A stretch of 64,000 bases of DNA from Candidatus Eisenbacteria bacterium (GTDB lineage Bacteria > Eisenbacteria > RBG-16-71-46 > JAFGJU01). The position numbers and the translations under genes are program-made. Location: the NCBI GenBank assembly GCA_026388185.1, contig JAPLKG010000008.1, positions 461,149 through 525,148 on the forward strand, given 5' to 3'. Positions 40,401 to 56,056 of the stretch are shown here, one piece after another; the first letter of the stretch is position 1; the number at the start of each line of letters is the position of its first letter. A model generated the notes under the pieces. That model was not told the DNA's origin, ran no database searches, and saw only the letters and a list, made by a program, of their open reading frames with translations.

Positions 40401-41258
40401 TCGTGGTACGGGAAGAATTTCCCGGGCGATACGACACTCGCCTCCGAAATCGACTTCGAGAGGGGCTTGAGCCTCTTCGACAAGAACCAATTTGAAGCAG
40501 CGTACGCAAGTCTCTCGCAGGCACAGGCGAAGTTGCCCGCGCAGTCGAGGATCAGAGCGCTCATCACGATGGGCATGTGCAAGCTCAAACTCCAAGACTT
40601 TCCGCAGGCATCGAGCCATTTTGAGGAGGCGCTCGCGCTCGGGCCCGCTGACGGCACTTTGGCGTTCACCGCGTACTTCAAGCTCGGCACCTCGCTCTAT
40701 GCTCAGGCGAAGTACGACGAAGCTTCGCGCGCTTATCTGAGCGCGGGGGCGGTGTCGCCGGACTCCTCTTCACGGTGCGAAGCGTGGTACAATGCTGGTC
40801 TGTGCATGGAGAGGACCGAGAACTGGACGGAGGCCGCCTCCGTCTATGAAAAGGTTGCCGCCGCGTGCAAGGGCAAGCTGAGCCAGGACGCGGTCTTCAA
40901 GAGCGGCTACGCCTATCTCAACGCCGGCCAGCGGCCGAAGGCGCTGGAGCGGCTCAAGGCTGCGTTGGAGAGCGGCGCCGATGACGAGAAGCCGGAGATC
41001 CAGTACTGGATAGGCGAAACGTACGCGGCGATGGGAGAGTTCGAAAGAGCCGCCTCTGAATTCTTGAAGGTGCCCCTCGTCTACGGCGAAGGCTCTCTCT
41101 GGGCAGTGACCGCTCGCTACAAAGCGGGTCTCGCATTTGAAGAGACCGGAAACGTCGAGGCCGCCGCCAAGCAATACAGACTCTTACTGGAAAGAGAAGG
41201 TGAAAACTCGGAGTGGGGAAGCATGGCAAAAGAGAGGCTGCAGAAGCTTTCCAAGTGA
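37452..41258 (+). CDS. Very large TPR-repeat envelope protein
   Basis: The 1268-residue protein has an N-terminal hydrophobic segment (residues 9-35, possibly a signal peptide), then a Gly-rich stretch (38-80) and helical repeats to the end. Repeats such as [45 protein letters not shown]-like units and [12 protein letters not shown] match the TPR/YbgF-type pattern of 34 residues. I see no catalytic motif. It begins 16 bases after the permease and its stop overlaps the likely uvrA start. Position suggests a scaffold in the export system, but a link is not proven. Confidence 0.8.
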
Positions 41259-44197
41259 AGGTTCCCTCCGGTCTCCAAGTGGAGGGTTCCTCCGGGTCGA
41301 CGCCTGGTTTCATTTCGGTGAGAGGGGCGAGGGAGCACAACCTCAAGAACATAGACGTCGACATCCCGAGGAACTCGCTCATCGTTGTGACGGGCGTGAG
41401 CGGCTCCGGAAAAAGCTCACTCGCTTTCGACACGATCTACGCCGAGGGCCAGAGGCGCTACGTCGAGTCCCTCTCCGCCTACGCGCGGCAATTCCTGGGC
41501 CAGATGGAAAAGCCCGACGTGGATTCCATCGAGGGGCTCTCTCCCGCAATCTCCATCGAACAGCGCACCGCAGGCGCAAACCCCCGTTCCACCGTGGCCA
41601 CGGTCACGGAGCTATACGACTACCTGAGGCTCATCTTCTCCAGACTGGGAGTGCAGCACTGTCACAAATGTGGCGCCCTGATAGGCGCCCAGACGCCTTC
41701 TCAAATCGTCGACTCGCTCATCGAGGTGGCGAACGGCAAAACCGTCCAGGTGATGGCTCCCATCGTGAGGGGCCGCAAGGGCGAATACAAAAAGGAACTG
41801 GACGCGGCGAGGAGACAAGGGTTCCTGCGAGCGCGAATAGACGGAGAACTGGTCGAACTCGAGAAAGTCGAGGCTCTCAAGAAAACCAAGAAACACACGA
41901 TTGACATTCTCGTGGACAGGCTCACGGCGGATGCAAAGAACCAGTCGAGACTGGTGGACTCCGTCGAAACGGCGCTAAAGGCGGCCGGGGGAGTTGTGAG
42001 TGTTCTGGTGGGTGGGGGCGGTGGAGCCGGCGGGGTGGGCGGAAGCGGCAAGGAAGGTTCGGGTGCCACAGCTGGTCGCGGCGGTCCCGCGAAGGAACTG
42101 CTGTTCAGCGAGAAGAGGGCGTGCGTTCGGTGCGGAATCGGCTTCGACGACTTAAAGCCCCGCAATTTCTCTTTCAACAATCCCTACGGCGCATGCTCCA
42201 CGTGCGACGGCCTCGGCACGCGGCTTGAGATAGACCCGTCACTGGTCGTTCCGAACCCGACGCTCTCCATCTCGAAGGGCGCAGTCGCGGCCTGGGGAGC
42301 CTCCAGCTCCGTGTGGTTCAACAGCCAGATGCGGGCCCTGGCGAAGCACTACGATTTCGACTTGGACATGCCGTTTCAGGAGCTGCCCGAGCGCGTAAAG
42401 GAAATCATCCTCTTTGGAGCCGGGCACGACGAAGTCGAGTTCACCTACAAGAGCAAGAACTTCACGATGAAAGGGAAGAGGAAATTCCCGGGAATCGTCC
42501 ACGATCTGGCGAGAAGATACAGGGCCACGACCTCGGGGGCCGTGAGAGACTGGTTGGACGGCTTCATGGCTCGGGGGCAATGCCCGGTGTGTGAGGGGAA
42601 GCGGCTTAAGCCCGAGAGCCTCGCCGTCACACTCAAGGGGCGAAACATCGCCGAGTACGCGTCTCTCTCCGTCAAGGAAGCCAAAGCACTCTTCGAGAAA
42701 ATGGAGTTCCGAGGAAGCGAAATCCCCATTGCCGAACCCATACTCAAAGAAATCGTACAGAGACTCAAGTTCCTCTGTGACGTCGGCCTCGACTACCTCA
42801 CGCTCGACAGAAACGCTGCCACGCTTGCAGGAGGCGAGGCACAGAGATTGAGGCTCGCCACGCAGATAGGATCTAGGCTCAGCGGAGTGCTCTACGTTCT
42901 CGACGAACCGAGCATAGGACTCCACCATCGTGACCAAAGGAGACTCCTCGGCACACTCTGCGAACTGAGAGACATGGGCAACACCGTTCTCGTCGTCGAG
43001 CACGACAGGGACACGATTCTCTCAGCCGACCATGTGGTCGACCTCGGCCCGGGCGCCGGAGAGAGAGGCGGCTGGCTCGTCGCCACCGGAAAGCCGGCGG
43101 AGATTGCACAAAACAGCGCGTCGCTCACGGGCCTCTACCTTTCGGGCAAGAAAGACGTTGAAGTACCTCGGACGAGGAGACGCCCGCAGGGCGCGTGCCT
43201 CACCGTGAAGGGCGCCGCCGCAAACAACCTGAAATCAATCGACGTGTCCTTCCCGCTCGGACTCTTCGTGTGTGTGACCGGCGTCTCGGGCTCGGGCAAG
43301 AGCACGCTAATAAACGACATCCTATACAGAGCGCTCGCGCGTCATTTCTATTCGTCCCCGGAATCGCCCGGAAAACACAGGGCAATAGAAGGACTCCAGC
43401 ACATCGACAAAGTCGTGGACATAGACCAGTCGCCGATAGGGAGAACCCCTCGATCAAACGCAGCCACGTACGTGGGCGCCTTCGGCTTCATGAGGTCACT
43501 TTTCGCTCAATTGCCCGAGGCCAAAGTGCGGGGATACTTGCCGGGGAGATTCAGCTTCAACGTGCACGGCGGCCGCTGCGAGGCGTGCCAGGGCGACGGC
43601 GTCGTCAAGATAGAGATGCACTTTCTCCCCGACGTTTACGTGACATGCGACACGTGCAGGGGCAAGCGATACAACCGCGACACCCTCGAAGTCCTCTACA
43701 AGGGGAAAAGCATAGCCGACGTCCTGGACATGACCGTCGACGCGGCGCACCAGTTCTTCCTCCAGATACCGCCCGTTCGGCGAAAGCTCGAGGCGCTCAA
43801 CAACGTGGGCCTGGGCTATCTCCGGCTCGGACAGCCCGCCACGAGACTCTCCGGAGGCGAGGCCCAGAGAGTGAAGCTCGCGACCGAGCTTTCCAAGGTC
43901 GCCACCGGGAAGACGCTCTACATCCTCGACGAACCCACGACAGGCCTCCATTTTGATGACGTGAGACTGCTGCTCCACGTCCTGACCCGACTCGTGGCCG
44001 CAGGCAACACCGTAATCGTGATCGAACACAACCTTGACGTCGTGAAAGCGGCGGATCACATCATTGACCTCGGCCCCGAAGGCGGAGATGACGGCGGCCG
44101 CGTGGTTGCCCTCGGCACGCCCGAAGAGCTGGCCTCTTGTGCCGCCTCGCATACGGGGAAGGCCCTGAGGGATGTGGTGGGGGTGGGGGGAAAGTAG
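41255..44197 (+). CDS. uvrA: Excinuclease ABC subunit UvrA
   Basis: UvrA recognises DNA damage in nucleotide excision repair. Both ABC modules are present: Walker [10 protein letters not shown] near residue 47 and GVSGSGKST near 675. Zinc modules CVRC/CSTC and CEAC/CDTC are intact, and each module has its Walker B ([24 protein letters not shown]). The first ABC signature reads LAGGEAQR where the family has LSGGEAQR; the second is normal. Residues about 250-280 are a Gly-rich insert not seen in E. coli UvrA. I chose GTG at 41255, which overlaps the TPR stop by four bases; GTG at 41213 is possible. Confidence 0.93.
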
Positions 44198-44520
44198 GGT
44201 GTCGGCGTGGTGGTGACGTCAGTGGGGACGTGTGGGGTGAGGTGTACCGGAAGGGGTTTCACAGGTCTCTCATGAGACCAGGCGACATAGGCTGAGAAGC
44301 ATTCTCGCTCACAAGGTTCACTCCCCGGTCAGGTGTACCCAGAGGACATTTCTCGCACAGTCCTCTCTGCCAAACGACCGAGCTCAGCCGCGGTTGGGCG
44401 GGTTTCTGATTCACTTATGATAACTATCGGTCCAAACGGGGCCTGGAGCGAATGGTTATGTGGGGCTACACGTGGACTAGTTGGGCCAGCATATGTACCA
44501 ATTGATTGGCTGGGGAGCTG
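44198..44520. other. Intergenic region between uvrA and the accessory island
   Basis: No gene was found in this 323-base stretch. It contains a 6-bp hairpin GGTCTC-TCAT-GAGACC at 44264-44279 without a T-tract, and the octamer GGTGTACC twice (44241-44248, 44332-44339). The stretch is the boundary between the housekeeping operons and the minus-strand accessory island. I did not find a tRNA or clear att duplication at this edge. Confidence 0.6.
44264..44279. repeat. Short inverted repeat after uvrA
   Basis: GGTCTC and GAGACC flank a TCAT loop. No U-tract follows, so it is only a weak terminator candidate for the uvrA operon. Confidence 0.3.
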
Positions 44521-44852
44521 CTAGCCCTTCCCGTATCGCCAACGTATGCCTCCGCACTGGCACTGAACCAACTCGGAGCCTTCGGCGTCGGCGAACCAGA
44601 TTCCTTTACCACACGATGGGCATTTGAAAGACTCGAGGGCCTTCTCACAAGCATCTATGAGCTTGGTGGCCTCAGAGCAAACGACGTCGAAGGTGTGGGA
44701 GGCACGGTTGGCCCATGACATGAGTAGCTTGTCCGCTTTGTCCAGGGCATCGATCGCCTCTGTGTGAGTGACGTAGTGATTGTCCTCTTTCTTCTGGAAG
44801 GAGGATCTCTTGCCATTCGCTAACAAGCGCTCCAAGAAGTCATGGGCCATCC
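44521..44852 (-). pseudogene. 3' fragment of the Rad50-like ATPase gene, cut off by an IS element
   Basis: The 109-residue open frame starts at an ATG that is really an internal codon of the disrupted ATPase gene. It holds a helical stretch (ALDKADKLLMSWANRASHTF) and a C-terminal zinc ribbon, CPSCGKGIWF then CQCGG, ending RWRYGKG. The other part of the gene is at 46072-48104. Joining plus-strand 44848 directly to 46072, with one copy of ATCC removed, puts both parts in one frame: the codon at the joint is ATG. The pieces would give about 786 residues. Confidence 0.88.
44849..44852. repeat. Target-site duplication, left copy (ATCC)
   Basis: ATCC immediately before the left inverted repeat. 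The same four bases follow the right end at 46072-46075. Confidence 0.85.
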
Positions 44853-44879
44853 TGACCTTCCCCCCGAAAACTGGTCCAG
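44853..44879. repeat. IS left terminal inverted repeat
   Basis: 27 bases that pair with the right end at 46046-46071, with one extra T and a four-base mismatched centre. Confidence 0.85.
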
Positions 44880-44927
44880 TTGAGGCCTCGATTTTGGGGT
44901 AGTATTACCCTTAAGGAGGGACTGGAC

Positions 44928-45194
44928 ATGAAGGGTTCCCGGTACAGCGAGGAGCAGATAATCGGGATCTTGAAGGAGGTGGAGGCGGGACTGAAGGTGA
45001 CGGAGGCGTGCCGGAAGTACGGGATGAGTGAGTGGACGTTTTACACGTGGCGGAAGAGGTATCGGGGATTGACGGTACCTGATGTCAGGCGTTTGAAGGG
45101 GTTGGAGGAGGAGAATCGTCGTTTGAAGACATTGCTGGCGGAGACGGTGTTGGATAATCGGGCGTTGAAGGATGTTTTGTCAAAAAAATGGTGA
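44928..45194 (+). CDS. IS3-family transposase OrfA
   Basis: The 88-residue DNA-binding subunit has a helix-turn-helix (YSEEQIIGILKEVEAGLKV, CRKYGMSEWTFYTWRKRY) followed by a leucine-zipper-like helix (LEEENRRLKTLLAETV). The ATG at 44928 is preceded by an AAGGAGG site. The frame ends at TGA 45192-45194, just after a run of seven A at 45182-45188, where ribosomes can slip back one base into orfB. Confidence 0.92.
   Translation: MKGSRYSEEQIIGILKEVEAGLKVTEACRKYGMSEWTFYTWRKRYRGLTVPDVRRLKGLEEENRRLKTLLAETVLDNRALKDVLSKKW
45182..45188 (+). promoter_or_regulatory. A-AAA-AAA slippery heptamer for -1 frameshifting (OrfAB)
   Basis: The heptamer lies in the zero frame of orfA as A AAA AAA. A one-base slip back reads AAA AAA ATG, straight into the orfB frame. 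IS3-family elements make their active OrfAB transposase this way. The orfB ATG itself (45188) is made of the last A of the run. Confidence 0.8.
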
Positions 45195-46057
45195 GGCCCG
45201 CCGCGAGACGTGACGTGGTGGGCTATTTGCGGGGTGGGTATGGGATGAGCGAGCGGCGAGCGTGTAACTTGATGGAAGTGCATCGGTCGACGTGTCGTTA
45301 TCGAGTGAGAGCGGATCGTAACCGGGAACTTCGGGAGGTACTGAGAAGGTTGGCTGAAGAGCGTTTGCGCTGGGGGCAGGATCGGTTACACGTGCTGCTG
45401 CGTCGGCTGGGGTATGTGGTGAACCACAAGAGGACGGAGCGGTTATATCGTGAGCTCGGGTTGTCGTTGCGGCTTCGCAGGCGGCCCAAGCGAGTCAGCA
45501 GGGTGAGAGTGGTCTCGGCCTTGCCGGCGCGGCCGAACGAGCGGTGGAGCATGGATGTCATTCATGATCAGTTTGTGGCGGGACGTCGGTTCAAATGTTT
45601 GACGTTGGTGGATGACTGCACACGTGAGTCGCCGGCCATCTCGGTAAGCTTATCGATCACTGGAGAAGGGGTTGCGGAGGCACTGGATCGGGTCGGGACT
45701 GAACGGCCGTTGCCTGGAGAGATCGTATGTGACAACGCGCCTGAGTTCAATAGTGCTGCTCTTGATCGCTGGGCCTATGAGCACGGCGTCAAGCTCAGTT
45801 TTATCGAACCGGGCAAGCCTGTTCAGAATGCTTTCATTGAATCGTTCAACGGGAAGTTCCGGGACGAGTGTTTGAGTCAGCAGTTGTTCTTTGACCTGAC
45901 TGATGCGAGGGAGAAGATCGAAGCGTGGAGGAGAGACTATAACGAGGTCCGACCGCATCAGTCGTTGAAGAACCAAACGCCGAGAGAGTTTGCGAAGAAG
46001 TACGACGAGCAGCTGTCTAAAGAGGGAGAAACCGTGAGGTCACCCCTGGATCAGTAA
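45188..46057 (+). CDS. IS3-family transposase OrfB (DDE integrase core)
   Basis: The 289-residue catalytic subunit has an HTH-21-like start, then the rve integrase core. The DDE residues appear to be Asp in RWSMDVIHDQF, Asp in IVCDNAPEF and Glu in NAFIESFNGKFRDECL. The C-terminal YNEVRPHQSLKNQTPREF is typical. There is no internal stop. It ends 14 bases before the right end of the element. Confidence 0.93.
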   Translation: MVRPAARRDVVGYLRGGYGMSERRACNLMEVHRSTCRYRVRADRNRELREVLRRLAEERLRWGQDRLHVLLRRLGYVVNHKRTERLYRELGLSLRLRRRPKRVSRVRVVSALPARPNERWSMDVIHDQFVAGRRFKCLTLVDDCTRESPAISVSLSITGEGVAEALDRVGTERPLPGEIVCDNAPEFNSAALDRWAYEHGVKLSFIEPGKPVQNAFIESFNGKFRDECLSQQLFFDLTDAREKIEAWRRDYNEVRPHQSLKNQTPREFAKKYDEQLSKEGETVRSPLDQ

Positions 46058-46071
46058 GAGGGGGGAGGTCA
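46046..46071. repeat. IS right terminal inverted repeat
   Basis: The last 26 bases of the element, the inverse of the left repeat at 44853-44879. Confidence 0.85.
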
Positions 46072-46075
46072 ATCC
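46072..46075. repeat. Target-site duplication, right copy (ATCC)
   Basis: ATCC directly after the right inverted repeat, identical to 44849-44852. Confidence 0.85.
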
Positions 46076-48100
46076 TCCTGTCATTCTTGTCGGCGCGCAG
46101 GAAGGGTAGCCTGATGTGGAGGCGCTCTGCGATGAGTGATAGTTCGATGTCCATGATCTTCCGCGCGTCATTTCCTGCTGAGTCTGGGCGCTTTTTGAGG
46201 TGGGCGCGGGCATCACCGAAGGTCGTAGTCTTGTGCGACCAGCGGATACCGATATCCGGGGTCTCGTAAGGCAAGAGCGCTCTAAAGGTCCAGTTCTTAC
46301 TGTCAAGCTGCTGGCGGAGTTCAGCGTACCACTCCCGGTCATGGGTTAGAAGTAGCACCTGCCTCCCGCTGAATTCCTTGTCCAGTACCTCCGCGATCAT
46401 GCCTCGGTGGTTCCGGTCGAGGCTGACGACCACGTCGTCGAGTATGAGTGGCCGATCCTTGTCCGCTTCTCGCTTGGCCATGGCCAGGAAAATGCAGAGA
46501 CCAAGACTGTTACGGTAGCCTTCGGAGAGCGTCAGTCTTGGGGAATTCTGCTTGACGCCGTAGAACTTAAGCCCTATGTCGATCGCTTTTTCAGCGTCTT
46601 TCGGGACGTAGAGACAGACGGCCTCAATTGACTCTCCCGGGTGCAGGATTGCCCACAACGCCTGTATGTCTGTCGAGATTTCGTCGATCACGGTCTGCGA
46701 GCGCAACCTGATTTCGTCCCGGACACCCTGTTCAAGGGAGCTGAGGAACGACGTGAGGGCATGGGCGCGCGCCGCAGAAAGAGCCAGTTCTTTGGCCTCA
46801 ATCACGGCCTCAGCAACCTCGGCTATCCGCTTGTCCGCCGATAGCTGCTCGACATCAGGAGGGGCGTGCTTTGAGGCGACATCGGCAGCGGTGGTCAGTG
46901 GAAGGAGCTTCTTCTCGATTGTTCTTAGCTTCTCTTCCCCACATGACGTGCGAAGTGCCTCGCCGTTGATCTGATCGAGGTATGCTGAGTTCTTAGCCAG
47001 GGGGCCTTTGGAAAGTTCATCCCGCCACGACTTGACATCGGCCTTGGCAAGGAGGGTCTTGAGGGACTTAACGCTGTCGCACAGAGCTGCGATAGCCCCC
47101 TTGCGGGTGTTGAATGTGTCAATGACATCTTGGAGCCGTCTCCGCTCGGCCTCAATATGCGCCCTAAAGTCGTCGACTGGAATGGACTGCCCGCAGGCTG
47201 GGCACTCCACCTCTTCCTCGTCTCCTAGTTTCTCGACGAATTCGTCTGTCGATTGCAGCACCTCTAACTTCTCGGCGATCAACGGCTCGACCGCCTCGGC
47301 GAGTTTGGCATTGGCCGCGCGTACAGCGCCGACATGGCCTTTCAGGCCAACGTCGGCTGCATCCCGAAGAGCAAAATATCGCTTCTGCTCTTTAGAGAAC
47401 CGTTTGACCAGTGTGTCGATAGCTGTCTCCAATTGCTTGCAGTAGGACATGTGGTCTCGTGTGGCAGCCTTGTCCGGGCAATACCTCGAGTGGAGTTCTT
47501 CAATCTTTTTGAGTATCTGCTCGTCGCCGTCGGCGCCGAAAGTGAGCCTCCGCTTTCTTTCCACTTCCTGGAGAACGCCCTTGATTTCCTTGAGCTTCGC
47601 CTGCTGCTCGACGGATTTAACGAGTTGCCGCAAGTTCTCTGCTGCCACCTCCATTTTGTGCAGCCCCAGAAGAGGAAGTAGAGCGGAGTACTTTCCTCCC
47701 TTTGTATCGTGAACGAATGCCGCGACCTCGTCTTGGCGCAGGACGAGGCGCTGGTAGTCCCAGGTACCCATCGCGATTGTCTCAGCTCCTGAACAGATGG
47801 AGGACCCATCTGGCTTGATCTCGATTCGTAGTGTCACGTCATCCTTGAATATGATTCTTAGCTCAGTCTTTCTATTCTTGGGCTTGTGGGTGTTGGGGAT
47901 TGCCCTCTCCTGGTGCTTGCCGCTGTACTCGTGGGCGAGATGTCCGATTCTGCCGCTGTTGAGCACATACTCAATGGCATCCACAAAGCATGATTTTCCT
48001 GAACCATTCTCCCCATAAACGACTATGGATTTGCAGTTCGTTTCCAGCAAGACAGGATCGGCTGCGCCGCGAAACCACGCCAGTTGGATGCTCTTTATCC

Positions 48101-48313
48101 TCATTGCTTCGGCTCCGTCTTGGGTGGGGTGGGGACCATGTCAGCGATGAGTGCCTTCGCGATGCTTGTCAGCTTTGTCAGAGACAGCGGCTGCTCGCTG
48201 AGCCCACCACTGAGCAACTTCTCCATTCTTGAGGCGACAGCCTCGATCACAGATGCATGACCTTTGCGTGCTTCGGCGATACGGGACCTAATCCAACGAA
48301 CCTCATTTGGCAT
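48101..48313 (-). CDS. Small 70-residue protein coupled to the Rad50-like ATPase
   Basis: A short, mainly helical protein (MPNEVRWIRSRIAEARKGHA) with a Pro-rich, Lys-rich tail. I do not recognise a family. The ATG at 48313 has a GAGGAG site at proper distance, and its TGA overlaps the ATPase start, so the pair is translationally coupled. That makes it a probable partner subunit of the ATPase. The length is too short for a known Lamassu or Rad50 partner that I can name. Confidence 0.7.
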   Translation of the reverse strand: MPNEVRWIRSRIAEARKGHASVIEAVASRMEKLLSGGLSEQPLSLTKLTSIAKALIADMVPTPPKTEPKQ

Positions 48314-48387
48314 TGGTTTCTCCTCAGGGAACGCCTAGGAATGCTGGATGTGGTTGAAAGTACTCCCATGCTAGGTAACGGTGTGGC

Positions 48388-49179
48388 TCAACGACGCGAA
48401 ATCCCACCGCGGATTTTGCGTACAGTGGAGCCGCTTGTTCGCCGTTCCTGTTTCTTGATTACTTTCACCGCGTCATCAAAGAATGCGATGGTGTTGTAAT
48501 ACTTGCACTCTGTCTCTCGGGGGACTTGGTGCATTGCAAGAAACTCTAGGAGTTTTTCTCTTGGTCTTTCCCCATCGCGGCACGGTGATATTGATGGCAC
48601 GAAGAATACCTTGGGCCAATTCACAGCCTTGACGCGAACTATCTTGACGTTCTTAAGGGGGATGTCGTAATCCGGCATGACGTTGCCCTTTGTCGCGGAG
48701 TCATGCTCTAACCATCGCTGGATCATGATTGTTGCATGTGGTGTCGCATGGACTCCGCCGATCCACTCCGCTTTGTCGTACCAAGCTGCTGCGTCCGTGA
48801 CGGCTTGTCCCATGACGGTGTTTGTTGGATCGTCTACATAGAAGGAGCCGATGGAGATCGAGCCTCTCAGAAGTATCCGGTGCTGCATGGAGTCGACGAG
48901 AAACTTCCTGAGGATTGCGAAAAAGGAAGTGATGTCATTGAGTTCTGGCGCTCGTGATCCGCACTTGAGTATAACAAGAATCGTATCGTTGAACGTGAAT
49001 GTCGTGACGCGGTCGGAAGCGATCCTGCCAAGCACACCTTCGGTTTTCTGGTTGAGGAGTCTGAGGACATAGGATCGTGATTACAAAAAGCGTTCGACCT
49101 CGGCATCGTTGTAAGTGGCCGCGCCGAGCGCATCGAGTATTGCTACGATCCCGTTTTGCTGTTCGATTGGAGTTTTCAT
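48388..49179 (-). pseudogene. Nucleotidyl-cyclase-like gene interrupted by an in-frame TAA
   Basis: Read from ATG 49179, the frame gives GIVAILDALGAATYNDAEVERFL, then TAA, then SRSYVLRLLNQKTEGVLGRIASDRV without a frame change, and continues to 48388. The chain has the pattern of class III cyclase-like proteins: an Asp in ILDALG, an Asp in FNDTILVIL, then LLRGSISIGSFY and a WIG motif. Without the stop the product would be 263 residues. A shorter frame can start at GTG 49035 but lacks the first Asp. Either the gene is dead, or the base is a sequencing or assembly error. The cyclase assignment rests on these motifs alone. Confidence 0.7.
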
Positions 49180-49193
49180 CTGTTCATCTTCTC

Positions 49194-49261
49194 GGCGAAC
49201 ATCAACATGAGCCGTTCTGCGGAGCACAGTGAGCAGAATCGGCTCCATGTGATGGTTCGGT
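49194..49261 (-). other. attC-like recombination site 1
   Basis: Read on the plus strand, outer boxes GGCGAAC (49194-49200) and GTTCGGT (49255-49261) pair at most positions. The next four bases on each side do not pair. Then ACATGAGCCGTTCTGC pairs with GCAGAATCGGCTCCATGT, leaving one unpaired T and one unpaired C on one arm. This unpaired-spacer and extrahelical-base layout is the mark of integron attC sites. The site starts just after the stop of the J-domain gene, as expected for its cassette. Confidence 0.75.
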
Positions 49262-49266
49262 CTTTG

Positions 49267-50235
49267 TCATGGTCTCCAGTAATATTTCGCATCTTTTACT
49301 GTAAATGTTCTGTTCAAATCTTCTGCATTGGAGATTTCAATTAGTTGTTTCTGTATGAGATAACCTATGAAACAATTCTTGAGCAATTCATATGTACTTG
49401 TCCGAAATAGTGGGAATCCTATATGGGCCAGTAAAGATTTCCATTTAGCTCTATTGCCAGCGATGAAATCAAAAGCATGAGATTCAGTAAATTTTCCTCG
49501 TTTGCAATCTTCCCATGTGTAAACATAGGAAAGGTGATTCATGAAGTCGATGGAAAAGCGAGTCGAACAAACCTCTTGTACCCGTCTCCGGAGAAGGAGG
49601 TTTTCAATATATTGTTTTAGGGTTAAGAACAACATCGTCACGAAAAGTACAAAAAGAGTCATCTTGATGGTGGCTGGAGAAAAAGGCGAATACTGAGAGA
49701 TGAAATCTGATGTCTCCTTGACCTTGTTCATCGCAGGCATAAGTGCACCGAGCATGAAGACGAGCCCGAGAGAAGCTAAGCTTCCTGGTGTCGGCTTATA
49801 CAGCTTTTCGAGATTTCGGCGCTCTTCTTGAAAGCGAGCATCTTCCTTTCTCTTGAGTTCATCTTTCAGTTGCTCGATCTCAAACTCACCGCATTCAATG
49901 CGGTGCTTAAGGCGCTCAATCTCCTTATTTGCCTCGTCAAGCTCGTGTTGTGTGAACACGTTGTCATAGATGGGCCTGTATAGCATTAATTCTGCGGGTG
50001 TTCTGCGAATTGCCTCATCTTGAATGAATCGGAACAGTTCTGGCATCAGTTCCTGCGCAGCCTTGAAGCGTGCTTCAGCGGTTTTCTTTGACTCCGCGTC
50101 AACAAACCTATCTGGATGAATGTGATGACAATATTCCCGGAGCCGCGAATGAAGTTCGATGGGGCTACATTCATCCCGCATGTTTAAGAGATCACGCACC
50201 CGTTGGATAATGCTCTTTTGAATGGAATTGTTCAT
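49267..50235 (-). CDS. Membrane J-domain-like cassette protein
   Basis: The 322-residue protein begins with a J-domain-like helix pair holding an HPD motif (HHIHPDRF), which in DnaJ stimulates Hsp70. A coiled coil follows (about 95-150, HELDEANKEIERLKHRI), then two membrane helices (about 160-180 and 195-215), and a C-terminal soluble part of unknown fold. I chose ATG at 50235, with GGGAGA upstream, over GTG at 50259, which lies at the edge of the recombination site. No function is known. It lies between two attC-like sites and so looks like one gene cassette. Confidence 0.65.
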   Translation of the reverse strand: MNNSIQKSIIQRVRDLLNMRDECSPIELHSRLREYCHHIHPDRFVDAESKKTAEARFKAAQELMPELFRFIQDEAIRRTPAELMLYRPIYDNVFTQHELDEANKEIERLKHRIECGEFEIEQLKDELKRKEDARFQEERRNLEKLYKPTPGSLASLGLVFMLGALMPAMNKVKETSDFISQYSPFSPATIKMTLFVLFVTMLFLTLKQYIENLLLRRRVQEVCSTRFSIDFMNHLSYVYTWEDCKRGKFTESHAFDFIAGNRAKWKSLLAHIGFPLFRTSTYELLKNCFIGYLIQKQLIEISNAEDLNRTFTVKDAKYYWRP

Positions 50236-50247
50236 TCTTTCTCTCCC

Positions 50248-50304
50248 GCCGAACGTCACGGGCGAGCGGCAAGACTTTCCGTCCGCTCCAGCCGGAGATT
50301 CGGT
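50248..50304 (-). other. attC-like recombination site 2
   Basis: Plus-strand boxes GCCGAAC (50248-50254) and ATTCGGT (50298-50304) pair at five bases. Inner arms GAGCGG and CCGCTC pair, as do CGG/CCG with unpaired bases between. The R box next to the stop of the 3-helix membrane protein is degenerate (ACCGAAT on the cassette strand). Confidence 0.55.
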
Positions 50305-50307
50305 AGT

Positions 50308-51006
50308 TCATTTCTCTTTTGGTTGATCACCCTGTCTTGTCACCACATTGGGTGGAAACTGGGGTTTCTTAGTTGGCTCAGCGGGTTTCGTAGGTTGCTG
50401 TGGCACCTTTGGCTGATCTTCAGACATATTTCCTCCCGGGGGTTTCTCTGTTTGAGTGAAATTGACGGTCTCAATCCGTTGCACATCTCGGGGACGTCGC
50501 GCCTCGCTCACAGTGAATGGGACCGCGCTCAGAGCCATGAATATGACTCCAAGTACTAGACCTATATTTGCCCTGTACAGGAAGGCAGCTCTGGAGATGT
50601 TGTTCTCCATGTTGACGCTTGCGGCTTCCGCATAACTTCGTTCGAGTTCATCTTCAAACTCTTTCTCAGCTTCTGACTCTGACCTGTTCAAAGCACGGTA
50701 ATACGCCTTGTTGTTTGTGGAATACGCTAGCAGGTCGTTACAGGATGGTAGGACCAAATACTTGTAACGGTGCATGACTCGTACAATGTAGTAGAACGCT
50801 GCGATTAGGGCAAGAAAAGCTGCGAGCACACAGACAAGAAAGATGTAGGTCAAGTAGCCTGAAGAGTAGGCGAACAGTTTCACAAACGAAAAAGCTACCC
50901 CAGTGAGGCCAGTTAGCACCGCTATGGGTAGCGTAACTGCACCTTCGATCTGTTGTCTGCGGTTGAGCTCAAAGTAATATTGCTCTTTCATCAAATCAAC
51001 GCTCAT
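50308..51006 (-). CDS. Cassette membrane protein of unknown function (three helices)
   Basis: The 232-residue protein has an acidic/aromatic start (MKEQYYFELNRRQQIEGA), two closely spaced membrane helices (about residues 20-45 and 50-75), a charged helical middle with KEFEDELERSYAEA, and a third helix (about 145-165). The tail is Pro/Lys-rich. The layout resembles SLATT-type or other small membrane effectors in defence loci, but I cannot assign it to one. The start ATG 51006 is preferred to GTG 51030, which lies in the recombination-site edge. Confidence 0.6.
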   Translation of the reverse strand: MSVDLMKEQYYFELNRRQQIEGAVTLPIAVLTGLTGVAFSFVKLFAYSSGYLTYIFLVCVLAAFLALIAAFYYIVRVMHRYKYLVLPSCNDLLAYSTNNKAYYRALNRSESEAEKEFEDELERSYAEAASVNMENNISRAAFLYRANIGLVLGVIFMALSAVPFTVSEARRPRDVQRIETVNFTQTEKPPGGNMSEDQPKVPQQPTKPAEPTKKPQFPPNVVTRQGDQPKEK

Positions 51007-51028
51007 GGGATTTCGACCGCTTAGAATC

Positions 51029-51078
51029 ACCGAACGCCAGCAATAACCTGGCGCCGCGCAGCGACGCTCAGGTTATTG
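51029..51078 (-). other. attC-like recombination site 3 (unusual core)
   Basis: An inverted repeat runs from 51041 to 51078: CAATAACCTG..GCG pairs with CGC..TCAGGTTATTG with one unpaired base, and a GC-rich loop of about 11 bases lies between. An ACCGAAC box (51029-51035) sits at the start of the next cassette. The stop codon of the nuclease-like gene (51073-51075) lies inside the repeat, as in many integron cassettes. The core is not the usual one, so it could also be a terminator hairpin. Confidence 0.4.
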
Positions 51079-51933
51079 TCTTGTCCGCCCTTTTTCTCTC
51101 GATGAATCAAGAGACTCGATCATCTTCGTGATCAACCTTGCCGTACAGGCGAGTTGTGCGCATGCCACTTTGGCCGAGAAATCTTGCCAGGTCGCAAGAT
51201 TTCTGAAAACCCCACCCTGATTCAGCGGAGAGTCTTGAACAAGAGAATAGAAAGTCTTAAGAATTCCCGCGTGTTCGCCGTTGATCACAGGGACTACCAC
51301 GGGCTGTTTCCTCAGCGCATCAGCCATTCGTGTCGCATACACGTACTGGCGGATGAGTTGGTATGTGTCTTCCCAGTCTTTGAGGCTCTCCAGTTCTACG
51401 AACCCTGACACCTTCGCGTAGGATCTCATTCGGCGCATAGCACCGCTTTCCTTGCCGTTAGATCTATTTGTTTGTGCCTTCCAAGGTGATTGGCCGCCGT
51501 TGAGGTTTAGTTTGCACTCGACGAAAGCGACCTCGCCCTCGGTCACAAGCACAAGATCGGGCTCAGTCATAGTGCCCCTGAGTTGCCCGTCAACGGTTCT
51601 GATGAGGATGCTTAGGAGTTGCTGGATCTCACTATGCTTCTCAACATCACATCCCCAGAACAGGACGGATTCGACAGCTGAAAGACCGAGCACCTCAGAT
51701 ACCACTTGAAGGCCCCTTGGGCCTTCAATCTGGAGGCTGCGGAAGACGTTCCATGTCATGGCGTCTTCACTGTTGGCCACACCGAGGTAAGCCTTGCCTC
51801 CATCCTTTCCCGGCTTCCAGAGGCTCTCGCCTGCGAAGTGGTCACGCCATGCCTTCTGGATAAGTACGGGATTGTGCGGGTCGGCGATGAGATTTGTTCG
51901 AAAGTCATACTGCGCGAGGTGTTCCGGTATCAT
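51073..51933 (-). CDS. PD-(D/E)XK nuclease-like cassette protein
   Basis: The 286-residue protein contains TEPDLVLVTEGEVAFVECKLN near residues 122-142, with an Asp and a downstream E-C-K. That is the spacing of the PD-(D/E)XK nuclease core. The rest, including WNVFRSLQIEGPRGL and ESLKDWEDTYQLIRQYVYATRM, is not familiar. I chose ATG 51933, just after the box of recombination site 4, with GAGAGAAG upstream; GTG 51969 would start inside that site. It may be a defence or restriction-like enzyme. Confidence 0.65.
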   Translation of the reverse strand: MIPEHLAQYDFRTNLIADPHNPVLIQKAWRDHFAGESLWKPGKDGGKAYLGVANSEDAMTWNVFRSLQIEGPRGLQVVSEVLGLSAVESVLFWGCDVEKHSEIQQLLSILIRTVDGQLRGTMTEPDLVLVTEGEVAFVECKLNLNGGQSPWKAQTNRSNGKESGAMRRMRSYAKVSGFVELESLKDWEDTYQLIRQYVYATRMADALRKQPVVVPVINGEHAGILKTFYSLVQDSPLNQGGVFRNLATWQDFSAKVACAQLACTARLITKMIESLDSSREKGRTRQ

Positions 51934-51950
51934 TTCTTTGTCTTCTCTCT

Positions 51951-52014
51951 GGTGAACGGTGGGGCTCACCCTCGGGATGCACAGCGGACTGGCGGGTGGA
52001 GCGGCTGGTTATGG
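51951..52014 (-). other. attC-like recombination site 4 (degenerate)
   Basis: Boxes GGTGAAC (51951-51957) and GTTATGG (52008-52014) pair only in part. The inner arms GCTCACCC and GGGTGGAGC pair with one unpaired base. The site lies 8-70 bases after the kinase stop, where a cassette boundary is expected. Confidence 0.4.
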
Positions 52015-52041
52015 CTCGTGACATAGATGCCCAATGCTGAC

Positions 52042-53232
52042 TCACCTCCGCCACCGAAAAGCGGCGAGCCTACGTACTTGTTTCGCACCATCCGGGCCAG
52101 TGATTGAAAGCGCCTGTCTCTGGGCATCGAGGAGCCACCTGGACATGGATGGGCGTATGACCTGTTTCCGGCTGGGGCGAGCAGCGACTCCCTGAATGAG
52201 AAACGAAAGAAGCGGTGCGGCCTGGCGGTCCAGGGCGAGACGAGATATCAGAGAAGTCAGCCACTGATAATCAAGCAAGAGCGGTTCGCGAAACTTAAAC
52301 AAGAGACTATCCGCTACGATCCGCGTGAGATCATCCGTGGCTATGGAAGTCAGGGCCCTAGGATTCTGTGTCGTCCTGCGGAAGAAGGCTCGCTTGTGCG
52401 TCCTAGCATAGTCCCCTAGGGCGCGACCCCGACTTAAAGGGACGAGCAGGCGACCGACTGCCCGCATTGACTCGGGGCGTCGATCTCTCTCCAGCTGTGT
52501 CATCCGACCGATGACATAATCCCACGGCTTGAGGTGACGCCGGGAGCCCCGCGAGCCGCCGGAGGATGAGGGCATGGATGTGCCGACGGGGGAACCAACC
52601 AACATGTGCCTGACCGTCCTGCCCAAGGCAAAGATGTCACCCCTAGCATCGACAGATTGCGGATCCTGGGCTTGCTCGGGCGGGAGGTAGTATAGCGTGC
52701 CCAGCATGGAGTCCTCACCGCAAGTGAAAGTATGCCAATCCGCGATTCGGCACATCCCAAAGTCTGCGAGCTTGGGATGGCCATTGGTGGCAAAGAGGAT
52801 GTTGGCAGGCTTGATATCGCGGTGCACTATGCCTGTGTTGTGGGCATATTGCAGGGCCGAACATATGGGCCACAGTATATCCAGTACGGCTTGCTGTCTC
52901 ATGGGCCCATTCTCAATCATCTTCTCGAGGGATCCGCCCCCGCAGAACTCCATGACATAATACGGATTGTCTGCGTTGACGTTGCAGTCGTATATGGGCA
53001 CGATGCTCGGGTGGTTCAGCCTGATCATCGCCTGAACTTCGCGAATGAAGCGTTGCTTGTGTCGGTCCAACGACGCCTTGGCTGCAGGAGCTTCCTCGCG
53101 AAGTGGCCTGAGAGACTTCAGTACGAGTCTCTGGCCAGACAGCCGATCGAGAACGAGGAACGTGACCGCTACCGAGCCCGATTCAACTTGCCGTATCACC
53201 TGATAGTGCTCGTCAATGAGTCTCTCTGCCAT
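52042..53232 (-). CDS. Hanks-type Ser/Thr protein kinase
   Basis: The N-terminal 280 residues form a protein kinase domain. The ATP-binding Lys is in LVLKS (residue 39). The glycine loop is degenerate (VESGSVAV). The catalytic loop HRDIKPAN is at 137-144, DFG at 157-159 and PPEQ at 184-187. Residues 280-396 carry no domain I know. No membrane helix is evident. Only 90 bases without a clear recombination site separate it from the macro-TIR gene upstream, so the two may form one two-gene cassette. Confidence 0.85.
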   Translation of the reverse strand: MAERLIDEHYQVIRQVESGSVAVTFLVLDRLSGQRLVLKSLRPLREEAPAAKASLDRHKQRFIREVQAMIRLNHPSIVPIYDCNVNADNPYYVMEFCGGGSLEKMIENGPMRQQAVLDILWPICSALQYAHNTGIVHRDIKPANILFATNGHPKLADFGMCRIADWHTFTCGEDSMLGTLYYLPPEQAQDPQSVDARGDIFALGRTVRHMLVGSPVGTSMPSSSGGSRGSRRHLKPWDYVIGRMTQLERDRRPESMRAVGRLLVPLSRGRALGDYARTHKRAFFRRTTQNPRALTSIATDDLTRIVADSLLFKFREPLLLDYQWLTSLISRLALDRQAAPLLSFLIQGVAARPSRKQVIRPSMSRWLLDAQRQALSITGPDGAKQVRRLAAFRWRR

Positions 53233-53322
53233 CCTGATGTTCCCCCCTAGAGTGCTGCGAGGCGGCTCCGCATGCCCACTGGACCGTGCCGAAGCTCACC
53301 AGAGTAGCTGTAACGTCGCAAA

Positions 53323-54357
53323 TCAGCGGCGCGGTTTACCGCGTACGCTGGATCTGTCTGGCTCGGCCGTTCCGTTCTTGTGGATCTTCTGCTTCACATA
53401 CGTAGGTACCTCTCCTAGCTCCGGTTCCGTGTCGCAATCGAAAATGCACAGCACAAGTTCTTTGAGCCTTTCAGGATCTATGTCTGACTCTTTGCCCCAG
53501 TCAAAGGCGTACTTTGACTTCATATAAATTGGAAGGGCTTCATCGGCAGCATCTTCACGGATGATGGCAATGTACTTCCGTTTGTTATCGCCTTGAGCAA
53601 GCATGTCGCCTTGAATGACCATTGTCTCCCAGCCCACCCCCCCTTTTCGGAAATCCGCCTTCTCCATGTAGTACTTGTCGCAGACAAGTAGCACCTTCTC
53701 CGCCATGATGACCTCATTTGCCATCCATTGTGGAAGGTCAAATCCGGGTTTCAAGTGAAATGCATCAAGACGTGCGTCCACCCCGTGTTCGCGTAACGCT
53801 GTGGCCAGCAACTTGACCCAAGATGCGTTGTTCTTGTTGGTTCCAGTGTAACTAATGAATACCCTTGGGTGAGGAATTGGCTTCTCTTCCGACGCGACCT
53901 TACGGGCGGCAGAGAGGTTCCGATATGCCTCACGCGTGAAGCAGAACACGTTGAAGATGATGTCCTTTTCTGCGGCAAGAATGGACCGGAGGGCCTCAAA
54001 GGAATCCACAGGTGTCATTCCTCCGGCACCCGATCCAAGGAGAGGGATATTGACTATTCTAATCTGATTCGCGGTCGCATAGCGGACAATTTCCCCTGCG
54101 ATTTGGCTGATTGCCTCCGCTTCAGACGTGATCGTGTTCGCGTTGACCGATGCAGCGTATCCAATCGTACTGGCGAACTCATACCTTGACTCTCGGAAGT
54201 GAACCTTTCCATATGGAATGTGGCCGACCATCGTGGGCAGACCGCGTTCGTGAAGGTTCGTGTATACCGAGTGAGTCACCCCCCCACCGCTGTCACACGG
54301 AACGATCAGGAGGTCGCATTTTGAGTCAAAGATGCTGCCATGAATGAGATGTATCAT
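53323..54357 (-). CDS. Macro-TIR fusion protein (putative NAD-linked immune effector)
   Basis: Residues 1-150 resemble a macro domain, the fold that binds ADP-ribose: GSIFDSKCDLLIVPCDSGGG at the start and a glycine-rich loop PLLGSGAGG at 105-113. Residues 164-290 are a TIR-like domain: RVFISYTG at 165-172, a VLLVCDKYY strand, and KGGVGWETMVIQ, with Glu244 in the position of the NADase glutamate. TIR enzymes make or consume NAD-derived signals in bacterial immunity, and macro domains are sensors of such signals in some Thoeris systems. This chain carries both. That link is inference. Confidence 0.75.
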   Translation of the reverse strand: MIHLIHGSIFDSKCDLLIVPCDSGGGVTHSVYTNLHERGLPTMVGHIPYGKVHFRESRYEFASTIGYAASVNANTITSEAEAISQIAGEIVRYATANQIRIVNIPLLGSGAGGMTPVDSFEALRSILAAEKDIIFNVFCFTREAYRNLSAARKVASEEKPIPHPRVFISYTGTNKNNASWVKLLATALREHGVDARLDAFHLKPGFDLPQWMANEVIMAEKVLLVCDKYYMEKADFRKGGVGWETMVIQGDMLAQGDNKRKYIAIIREDAADEALPIYMKSKYAFDWGKESDIDPERLKELVLCIFDCDTEPELGEVPTYVKQKIHKNGTAEPDRSSVRGKPRR

Positions 54358-54369
54358 CGATTTCCTCTT

Positions 54370-54430
54370 GCCGAACGTCGCCGTTCACCGGCTCGGCGAA
54401 GCCGAGTCCGTGTGCAGCGGCTGGTTCGGC
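54370..54430 (-). other. attC-like recombination site 5 (best example)
   Basis: Perfectly paired outer boxes GCCGAAC (54370-54376) and GTTCGGC (54424-54430). Next to them GTCGCCGTTCACCGG pairs with CCGTGTGCAGCGGCTG, leaving two unpaired bases. The centre is a perfect hairpin, CTCGGC-GAA-GCCGAG, like the variable terminal structure of class 1 integron cassettes. It follows the stop of the 54454-55458 gene and precedes the macro-TIR gene. Confidence 0.8.
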
Positions 54431-54453
54431 ATGATGACTAGCTCATCCCGTGA

Positions 54454-55458
54454 TTAGTCTTCACTCCCAATGTCCATATGTAGCAACAGCACGGCAATAT
54501 CGCCCTCGAAACTCATCTCGACACTTCGTTCATCAACCGGGAAGTCAATCGCCCGTCCTAGGTTAGCGGTGCGAATCAAGCGAGTGGCGAAGGAGTCGAC
54601 CTCTGGATTTGCGGTCGCCCCACGCCAACAAGTGAATTCCCCTATGTTGATCTGAGTCCACCCTCGGATGAAATCGTAGAGGTCGCGAGCGAAGTGGAGG
54701 TTGCCCAAGAAGGGGATGCCAAGCCCGACGCCTGGCCATGGAACGGGTCCGATTCTACGCATAACATCGCGAAGGATGAAGTAATACTCATCTGGGTCAA
54801 GACCCGGAAATGGAACAGGTCCACTCGCGAAGCTTGACTGCAGTCCACCCTGCTGAAGAACACTTGGGAAACTCACGTCTGCCGGCTCCAGCGTCGAGCT
54901 CTGTGCCAAGAACTCTGCAAGGAGTGGTGCTGATGCGAAGATCATCTCGCCTGGTTCAGAGAGGAGCCCGAATGCTCCAAGACAACCAGTGGAATTCCGG
55001 AACACGACATCATCCATGCCGCGGAATATACCGCGATTGCCGGTGAAAGGCGGGAAGTTCTTGAGCAGGAACAATTGCTCTGCGTCTATGCCCCAATTCT
55101 GGTTCTTCGCCTTTTTGTTTTGGATAATACACACACGCTCAACAAGCCGGCGCTTTCCCGCCGTCACAATGGAGATCGCAACCATATCTCCTAGTTCTCT
55201 AGTAGTGGGCTTGTCGCGAAAGTTGAACTCGACGTACGAGCGCGGGCCATGGATCTTGTTTGCCGCTATGTGGATCAGTCTGCCATACGACTTCTCGTTA
55301 ATCGCGGTGACGAGTCTCGTGATGATCGAAACTTCATTCTCAGCGGATGCATATGCTTGGCTGAGGGCATCGTAGGCGGCACGGACAACCCCGTTCTGGA
55401 AGTTGACAAAGTCGGTGTCATGGGCCAACTGTGCGGCAATTTCAAAGAACCTACGCAT
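54454..55458 (-). CDS. Cassette protein of unknown function, possible nuclease-like core
   Basis: The 334-residue protein has an ELGDMVAISIV strand followed by ERVCIIQNKK. That Asp then Gln-x-Lys spacing occurs in divergent PD-(D/E)XK nucleases. A QLFLLKNFPPFTG motif follows. I know no named family. The ATG at 55458 has AGGGA upstream; an earlier ATG at 55482 is possible and lies in the recombination-site flank. A defence role is a guess from its neighbours. Confidence 0.6.
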   Translation of the reverse strand: MRRFFEIAAQLAHDTDFVNFQNGVVRAAYDALSQAYASAENEVSIITRLVTAINEKSYGRLIHIAANKIHGPRSYVEFNFRDKPTTRELGDMVAISIVTAGKRRLVERVCIIQNKKAKNQNWGIDAEQLFLLKNFPPFTGNRGIFRGMDDVVFRNSTGCLGAFGLLSEPGEMIFASAPLLAEFLAQSSTLEPADVSFPSVLQQGGLQSSFASGPVPFPGLDPDEYYFILRDVMRRIGPVPWPGVGLGIPFLGNLHFARDLYDFIRGWTQINIGEFTCWRGATANPEVDSFATRLIRTANLGRAIDFPVDERSVEMSFEGDIAVLLLHMDIGSED

Positions 55459-55490
55459 ACTCGGTTTCCCTATTCTTCTCATTCTGTCGT

Positions 55491-55578
55491 GCCGAACGCG
55501 CGGGGTCAGCTGCGGCGCGGCTCGCGCCAGACGTTGTTATTGCCTCGGCGCCCCGGCCGCTGGAGCCCGAAGTTAGGC
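55491..55578 (-). other. attC-like recombination site 6
   Basis: Boxes GCCGAAC (55491-55497) and GTTAGGC (55572-55578) pair at six of seven bases. The second is the standard GTTRRRY core. Arms CGGGGTCAGC and GCTGGAGCCCG pair with extra unpaired bases. The central 45-base part is GC-rich and could fold further. It lies 8 bases after the stop of the 55586 gene. Confidence 0.7.
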
Positions 55579-55585
55579 TTCAATC

Positions 55586-56017
55586 TCATACGTTACCTAT
55601 GAGGGCCAAGGATAAGAACCAGAACACCATGAACATGATGTAGAGGCCCTTGGTCGCACGAAACATGAGGTTCGATCTAGGTCTCTCCTCCATGGTGTTG
55701 TACTGGAGGAGCCTCTCCAGCTCCCGGGCCTTCTCCTGATAGTAACGAATGAGCTGTTCGAGGCGCCGCTCGTAGCCGAAGAAGACGAAGGTAACGCCCA
55801 GCCCGATCACTCTGAATGCGATGAGCACGGAGTGCGTGACACCCTTCTCCGGCGAAATAAGTCCGAAGGCCGCTGAAACCGCGGCCGCTGAGACGGCAAA
55901 GTAAACAGAGACCATGACAAAGCGAAGAGAACTGTAGTGGCGAAGATAGAGATTCGCTTCCGTGTACTCTTGATCCCGATGAGGTTGGATGGGTGTGTTC
56001 TGGAGAGTGCCCGACAT
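55586..56017 (-). CDS. Small cassette membrane protein
   Basis: The 143-residue protein has a polar start, two membrane helices (about residues 32-52 and 63-82), a charged helix (YYQEKARELERLLQYN), and a third helix near the C terminus (LYIMFMVFWFLSLALI). No family is recognised. I chose ATG 56017, which has GGGAGAAACC upstream; ATG 56056 adds 13 unlikely residues. It is the first gene of the cassette array. Confidence 0.6.
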   Translation of the reverse strand: MSGTLQNTPIQPHRDQEYTEANLYLRHYSSLRFVMVSVYFAVSAAAVSAAFGLISPEKGVTHSVLIAFRVIGLGVTFVFFGYERRLEQLIRYYQEKARELERLLQYNTMEERPRSNLMFRATKGLYIMFMVFWFLSLALIGNV

Positions 56018-56056
56018 GGTTTCTCCCGAGTCTGATGAAGCCCAACTACTGGTCAT

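Follow-up and report, generated by a model that had tools for sequence, protein, structure and literature searches.

A small-protein/Rad50-like ATPase gene pair and a cyclase-like gene lie side by side in a Candidatus Eisenbacteria genome

RloC is a Rad50-like ATPase with a C-terminal HEPN RNase, which is kept inactive by the ATPase and freed on DNA damage (PMC3710099). The ATPase LmuB of Lamassu has a length of about 650 amino acids (PMC10586767). The locus studied here lies in a window of 64,000 nucleotides (the whole stretch of DNA that was analysed) and carries a further Rad50-like ATPase gene, directly preceded by a gene of 70 codons and, upstream of it, by a class III nucleotidyl-cyclase-like gene. 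According to the original prediction, these three genes may form one undescribed, now broken, system. The analysis split them into two units.

Layout of the array and lesions of its genes

The three genes are the last of an array of genes on the same strand (Table 1). Translation and alignment with homologues confirmed their predicted anatomy, both lesions included, as well as the ATGA overlap between the stop codon of the 70-codon gene and the start codon of the ATPase gene. The lesion of the ATPase gene is one insertion with ATCC duplicated at both sides. The inserted element has the characteristics of the IS3 family, namely an OrfA/OrfB transposase, terminal inverted repeats and a short target duplication. 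The two pieces of the ATPase align to residues 1-678 and 678-785, respectively, of a single intact homologue of 785 amino acids (L072), to which they are 64% identical. In the cyclase-like coding sequence (49179-48388), an in-frame TAA is found at 49081-49083, where the homologues have a residue. The window copy ends after the first metal-ligand Asp, and a product from a restart would be without that Asp. Of the two disabling lesions that had been predicted, the split of the ATPase gene by IS3 therefore stands, while that of the cyclase-like gene comes down to a single stop codon, and this codon might stem from a sequencing error in the metagenome-assembled genome (MAG).

Table 1. Features of the array in the window (positions are those of the window)
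Feature	Position	Strand	Evidence or remark
Same-strand gene array	between uvrA (41213-44197) and LysM/YkuD-like gene (56665 on)	-	the three studied genes are the last of the array
attC recombination site, directly upstream of cyclase-like gene	49194-49261	-	R and L boxes pair; shuffles
Class III nucleotidyl-cyclase-like gene, 263 codons	48388-49179	-	translation, homologues, fold of homologue L055
Gap, cyclase-like gene to 70-codon gene	48326-48387	-	sequence and attC scan
70-codon gene, partner of ATPase	48101-48313	-	short gene likewise placed in 16/19 other ATPase loci
Rad50-like ATPase, residues 1-678	46072-48104	-	Pfam SMC_N 4.5e-16; 64% identity to L072 protein
IS3-family insertion sequence, 1219 bp	44853-46071	+	NCBIfam transpos_IS3 6.9e-66; ends TGACC...GGTCA
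IS3 OrfA; OrfB	44880-45194; 45188-46057	+	
Target-site duplication ATCC, left copy	44849-44852		
Target-site duplication ATCC, right copy	46072-46075		
ATPase C-terminal piece: helical domain, NxxxH motif, zinc ribbon	44521-44852	-	64% identity to L072 residues 678-785
attC-like sequence downstream of ATPase	44431-44486	-	90/200 shuffles as good

The attC site upstream of the cyclase-like gene has pairing R and L boxes, with a 10-bp L stem carrying one extrahelical base, and its score was reached by 0/300 and 0/200 shuffles. This site is the cassette boundary with a DnaJ-like/TM gene. The attC-like sequence downstream of the ATPase gene is at chance level. As a control, 44 kb were scanned, yielding zero matches at score 11 and five at score 10. 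Between the cyclase-like and the 70-codon gene, no attC passed the scan. A match of score 12 at 48386-48431 was rejected, being 46 nt long and overlapping the stop of the cyclase-like gene. An R'-like GTTC box at 48329-48332 precedes the ATG of the 70-codon gene by 19 nt, and the gap also contains a CCTAG/CTAGG arm pair. The distance from GTTC to the start codon equals that at the SEFIR gene, a neighbouring cassette boundary, and this spacing suggests that the gap possibly holds an eroded attC, that is, a cassette boundary.

The rest of the array (49267-56056) is defence-like. Encoded are DnaJ-like/TM, SLATT/PycTM-like TM, REase-ARP, Ser/Thr kinase and 8xMP-like TM proteins, a Macro+SEFIR fusion and a 342-aa protein without assignment. 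Additional attC sites are located at 54370-54430 and 55491-55578. For integron integrase, TIGR02249 stayed below cut-off across the whole genome, so that the array resembles an attC cluster lacking an integrase.

The small-protein/ATPase gene pair

The 70-codon gene and the ATPase gene form a conserved pair. Relatives of the ATPase were collected from plasmids, genomes and one prophage (20 loci). A gene of 57-103 codons precedes the ATPase gene, with an overlap of 4-35 nt, in 16 of the 19 other ATPase loci, a count that leaves out L073, a mere fragment. The exceptions are the copies of Streptomyces, Sinorhizobium and Methylobacterium, the last of which contains internal transposase genes. The pair occurs in Bacteroidota, Alphaproteobacteria and haloarchaea, among other hosts, as well as in a prophage and on plasmids; sequence conservation among the small proteins is low. 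The pair is not covered by a family of its own in Pfam, NCBIfam or PADLOC, and a literature search, in which subscription journals were thinly covered, returned no description of either the pair or the cyclase-like cassette. The pair is thus apparently unnamed.

The ATPase of the window matches the SMC_N, AAA_13 and AAA_23 profiles and keeps all ABC motifs (Walker A, Q-loop, signature, Walker B LDD and H-loop), as well as a CPAC hook in the coiled coil and a zinc ribbon at the C terminus. Its best relatives of solved structure are Rad50 and SMC heads. In the family alignment, the C-terminal helical domain is marked by an invariant His and the zinc ribbon. This domain matched no Pfam or PDB family; its single-sequence model was poor (pLDDT 48.6) and was kept out of the fold search.

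Given the RloC-like layout of the ATPase, the pair is most likely, by analogy, a self-contained defence module that senses DNA and carries its own effector; the mechanism as such we put somewhat below an even chance. The ABC head and the zinc-hook coiled coil would sense foreign or damaged DNA, and the small protein would regulate the ATPase or help its assembly. The C-terminal helical domain, with its invariant His and zinc ribbon, would serve as the effector, like the HEPN RNase domain in RloC. This last assignment is weak, since the domain matches no profile or structure and the HEPN Rx4-6H motif occurs in the Bacteroidota copies only.

Alternatively, small protein and ATPase could be a Rad50/RecF-type factor for DNA repair or plasmid maintenance, outside defence, as might be expected from the Rad50 and SMC heads being the closest solved relatives and from the many plasmid-borne copies. 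This is unlikely in view of the distribution of the family, which is very patchy (6/385 genomes), of copies that lie in a prophage and next to genes for toxin-antitoxin or restriction systems, of repeated inactivation (the IS in the window, transposase genes inside the L084 copy, the L073 fragment) and of the lack of a recurring Mre11/SbcD partner. The mobile and defence-like surroundings also speak for the defence module: besides the plasmid-borne copies and the GIY-YIG-like neighbours described below, AbiE genes accompany the pair in L015, and L093 is situated at a prophage end beside ParD/ParE-like genes; searches of IMG/VR for relatives of the ATPase gave mostly nothing, L093 being the one relative. 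The family seems to be often lost, judging from the L073 fragment and from L084 (1557-5541), where the copy on a Methylobacterium plasmid is interrupted by transposase genes.

In three unrelated hosts, related GIY-YIG-like genes adjoin the pair (L014 1827-2520, L075 9148-9839 and L076 8585-9234). A KTSC-domain gene is also present in L075 and a gene of similar size in L076.

The cyclase-like gene and its separation from the pair

The fold of the cyclase-like family was assessed on a relative. The L055 homologue, 48% identical, was modelled with 25 sequences (pLDDT 90.5) and compared to the PDB using Foldseek; all 50 matches listed were class III adenylyl or guanylyl cyclases. On the strength of this model, the family is predicted to have the class III nucleotidyl cyclase fold. 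Throughout the family, both metal-ligand Asp residues are kept (in LDxLG and F[NS]DT), and the protein may therefore make a cyclic nucleotide. Its activity is uncertain because the Asn/Arg transition-state pair usual in class III cyclases is not evident in the family alignment (VTDAAAW).

The cyclase-like gene is most likely an orphan cassette, separate from the ATPase pair and mobile by itself. In L051 (Acidobacteria MAG), L054 (a Deltaproteobacterium) and L060 (Syntrophaceae MAG), the close homologue is a lone gene with an attC site at either end. No more than 2/200 shuffles scored as high as five of these six sites, against 13/200 for the weaker site downstream in L060. Single-protein searches in plasmids, phages and IMG/VR gave no credible match. 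A second cyclase-like subfamily (LDVLGWKGIWQR) was encountered in L048 (7303-8681), L057 (6907-8648), L062 (7330-8708) and L071 (262-1724). There, the gene lies in a tight operon behind that of a protein with a C-terminal M1E1E6-like integron-cassette domain (PF21648), and the two may constitute a separate two-gene signalling or defence system.

A more far-reaching reading is also conceivable: the pair would be an undescribed stand-alone immune system of bacteria and archaea in which a single chain is both sensor and effector, and, independently of it, the cyclase cassette would be the signal maker of a Pycsar-like system assembled from separate integron cassettes, with the PycTM/SLATT-like cassette at 50308-51030 of the same array as its effector. 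We regard this reading as quite improbable.

Co-occurrence of the two families was analysed from both sides. The cyclase-like set consisted of 33 loci, obtained from whole genomes and a genome-contig scan (L035 is from the same genome as L053). Using the ATPase-family profile, no member was found in these 33 loci. The single match (4e-9, in L065) was to a generic AAA_13 protein with an attC-like site just before its gene, and was rejected as evidence for the ATPase family. Conversely, the cyclase profile detected nothing in 19 ATPase loci, and the prophage copy has no cyclase beside it. Among 385 genomes searched with both proteins, only that of the window holds both. The closest intact ATPase pair (L072) has no cyclase nearby.

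In short, whether homologues are ever neighbours was checked starting from either family, and no co-located case was found beyond the window. The predicted three-gene system fails because the families are never adjacent (33 cyclase and 20 ATPase loci outside the window), because no other genome among the 385 searched has both, and because in three further lineages the cyclase-like gene forms a cassette by itself. What holds of the prediction is an undescribed unit, now broken, as far as the 70-codon gene and the ATPase gene are concerned: a conserved pair, split by an IS and unnamed in the libraries searched. It is likely that the window contains two independent units side by side in a cassette array, a cyclase-like cassette and a small-protein/ATPase pair, a putative defence module. 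A single system specific to this lineage, with the cyclase as signal maker or effector and the ATPase and small protein as sensors of invaders, would be in line with the contiguous genes on one strand and with lesions in both large genes; as no attC is detectable between the cyclase-like and the 70-codon gene, one cassette of all three is a formal possibility. In light of the co-occurrence data, of the single-gene cassettes and of the nearest intact pair, this reading is very improbable. Unless more cases emerge from a wider search, the three-gene proposal is best abandoned.

One further array, in an Oceanospirillales MAG (L065, 7989-15054), comprises both a cyclase-like gene and a Rad50-like AAA_13 gene. 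Between the two genes, attC-like sites are present, one after the cyclase-like gene and one before the AAA_13 gene.

A tempting but false three-gene system is thereby removed, and two testable objects take its place. The first is a conserved two-gene SMC-like module of bacteria and haloarchaea, unnamed in the defence libraries searched. The second is a cyclase-like gene carried singly by integrons, which prompts one to ask what would read its product.

Comparison with described systems

Like Lamassu, the pair has an SMC-like ATPase with a short coiled coil and hook, and a small protein encoded just before it. It differs from Lamassu in the lack of an LmuA effector gene, the longer ATPase, the Walker B sequence LDD and the lack of an LmuC match. 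That the locus is a Lamassu variant, with an LmuB-like ATPase, an LmuC-like small protein and the cyclase as LmuA effector, is very improbable: PADLOC LmuB profiles do match most ATPase members (1e-21 to 1e-28, partial matches) and the small gene is placed immediately before the ATPase gene, but the ATPases measure 785-827 amino acids with a C-terminal extension, against the length of LmuB given above (PMC10586767), their Walker B is LDD against the E-to-Q form reported for LmuB, the small genes match no PADLOC model (LmuC included, a component that some Lamassu systems lack), and the neighbours of the pair show no recurrent LmuA-like gene, the GIY-YIG-like gene occurring in three loci only.

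With the PycC cyclases of Pycsar, the cyclase-like family shares the predicted class III cyclase fold and the two metal-ligand Asp positions. In contrast to class III PycC, the family is without evident Asn/Arg transition-state residues. Its operon is without a CNB/TIR or PycTM gene, the PycTM-like gene two genes upstream being a weak match (E 0.001), and, unlike in Pycsar, the gene occurs as a lone cassette.

Compared to integron cassettes with defence genes, the host phylum is sparsely sampled and the genome is without an integrase above cut-off, whereas the organization is alike: single genes are each bounded by attC (seen on the upstream side for the cyclase-like gene of the window), and several defence-like cassettes are found per array.

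RloC and PrrC resemble the pair in the Rad50-like head, the zinc-hook CPxC and the C-terminal helical domain with its invariant His, and also in mobility, patchy distribution and location next to defence genes. The C-terminal domain of the pair, however, has no HEPN profile match and a zinc ribbon at its end, and Rx4-6H (RNEVGAH) is restricted to the ATPase copies of Bacteroidota. The pair also differs from RloC and PrrC in the small partner gene ahead of its ATPase gene.
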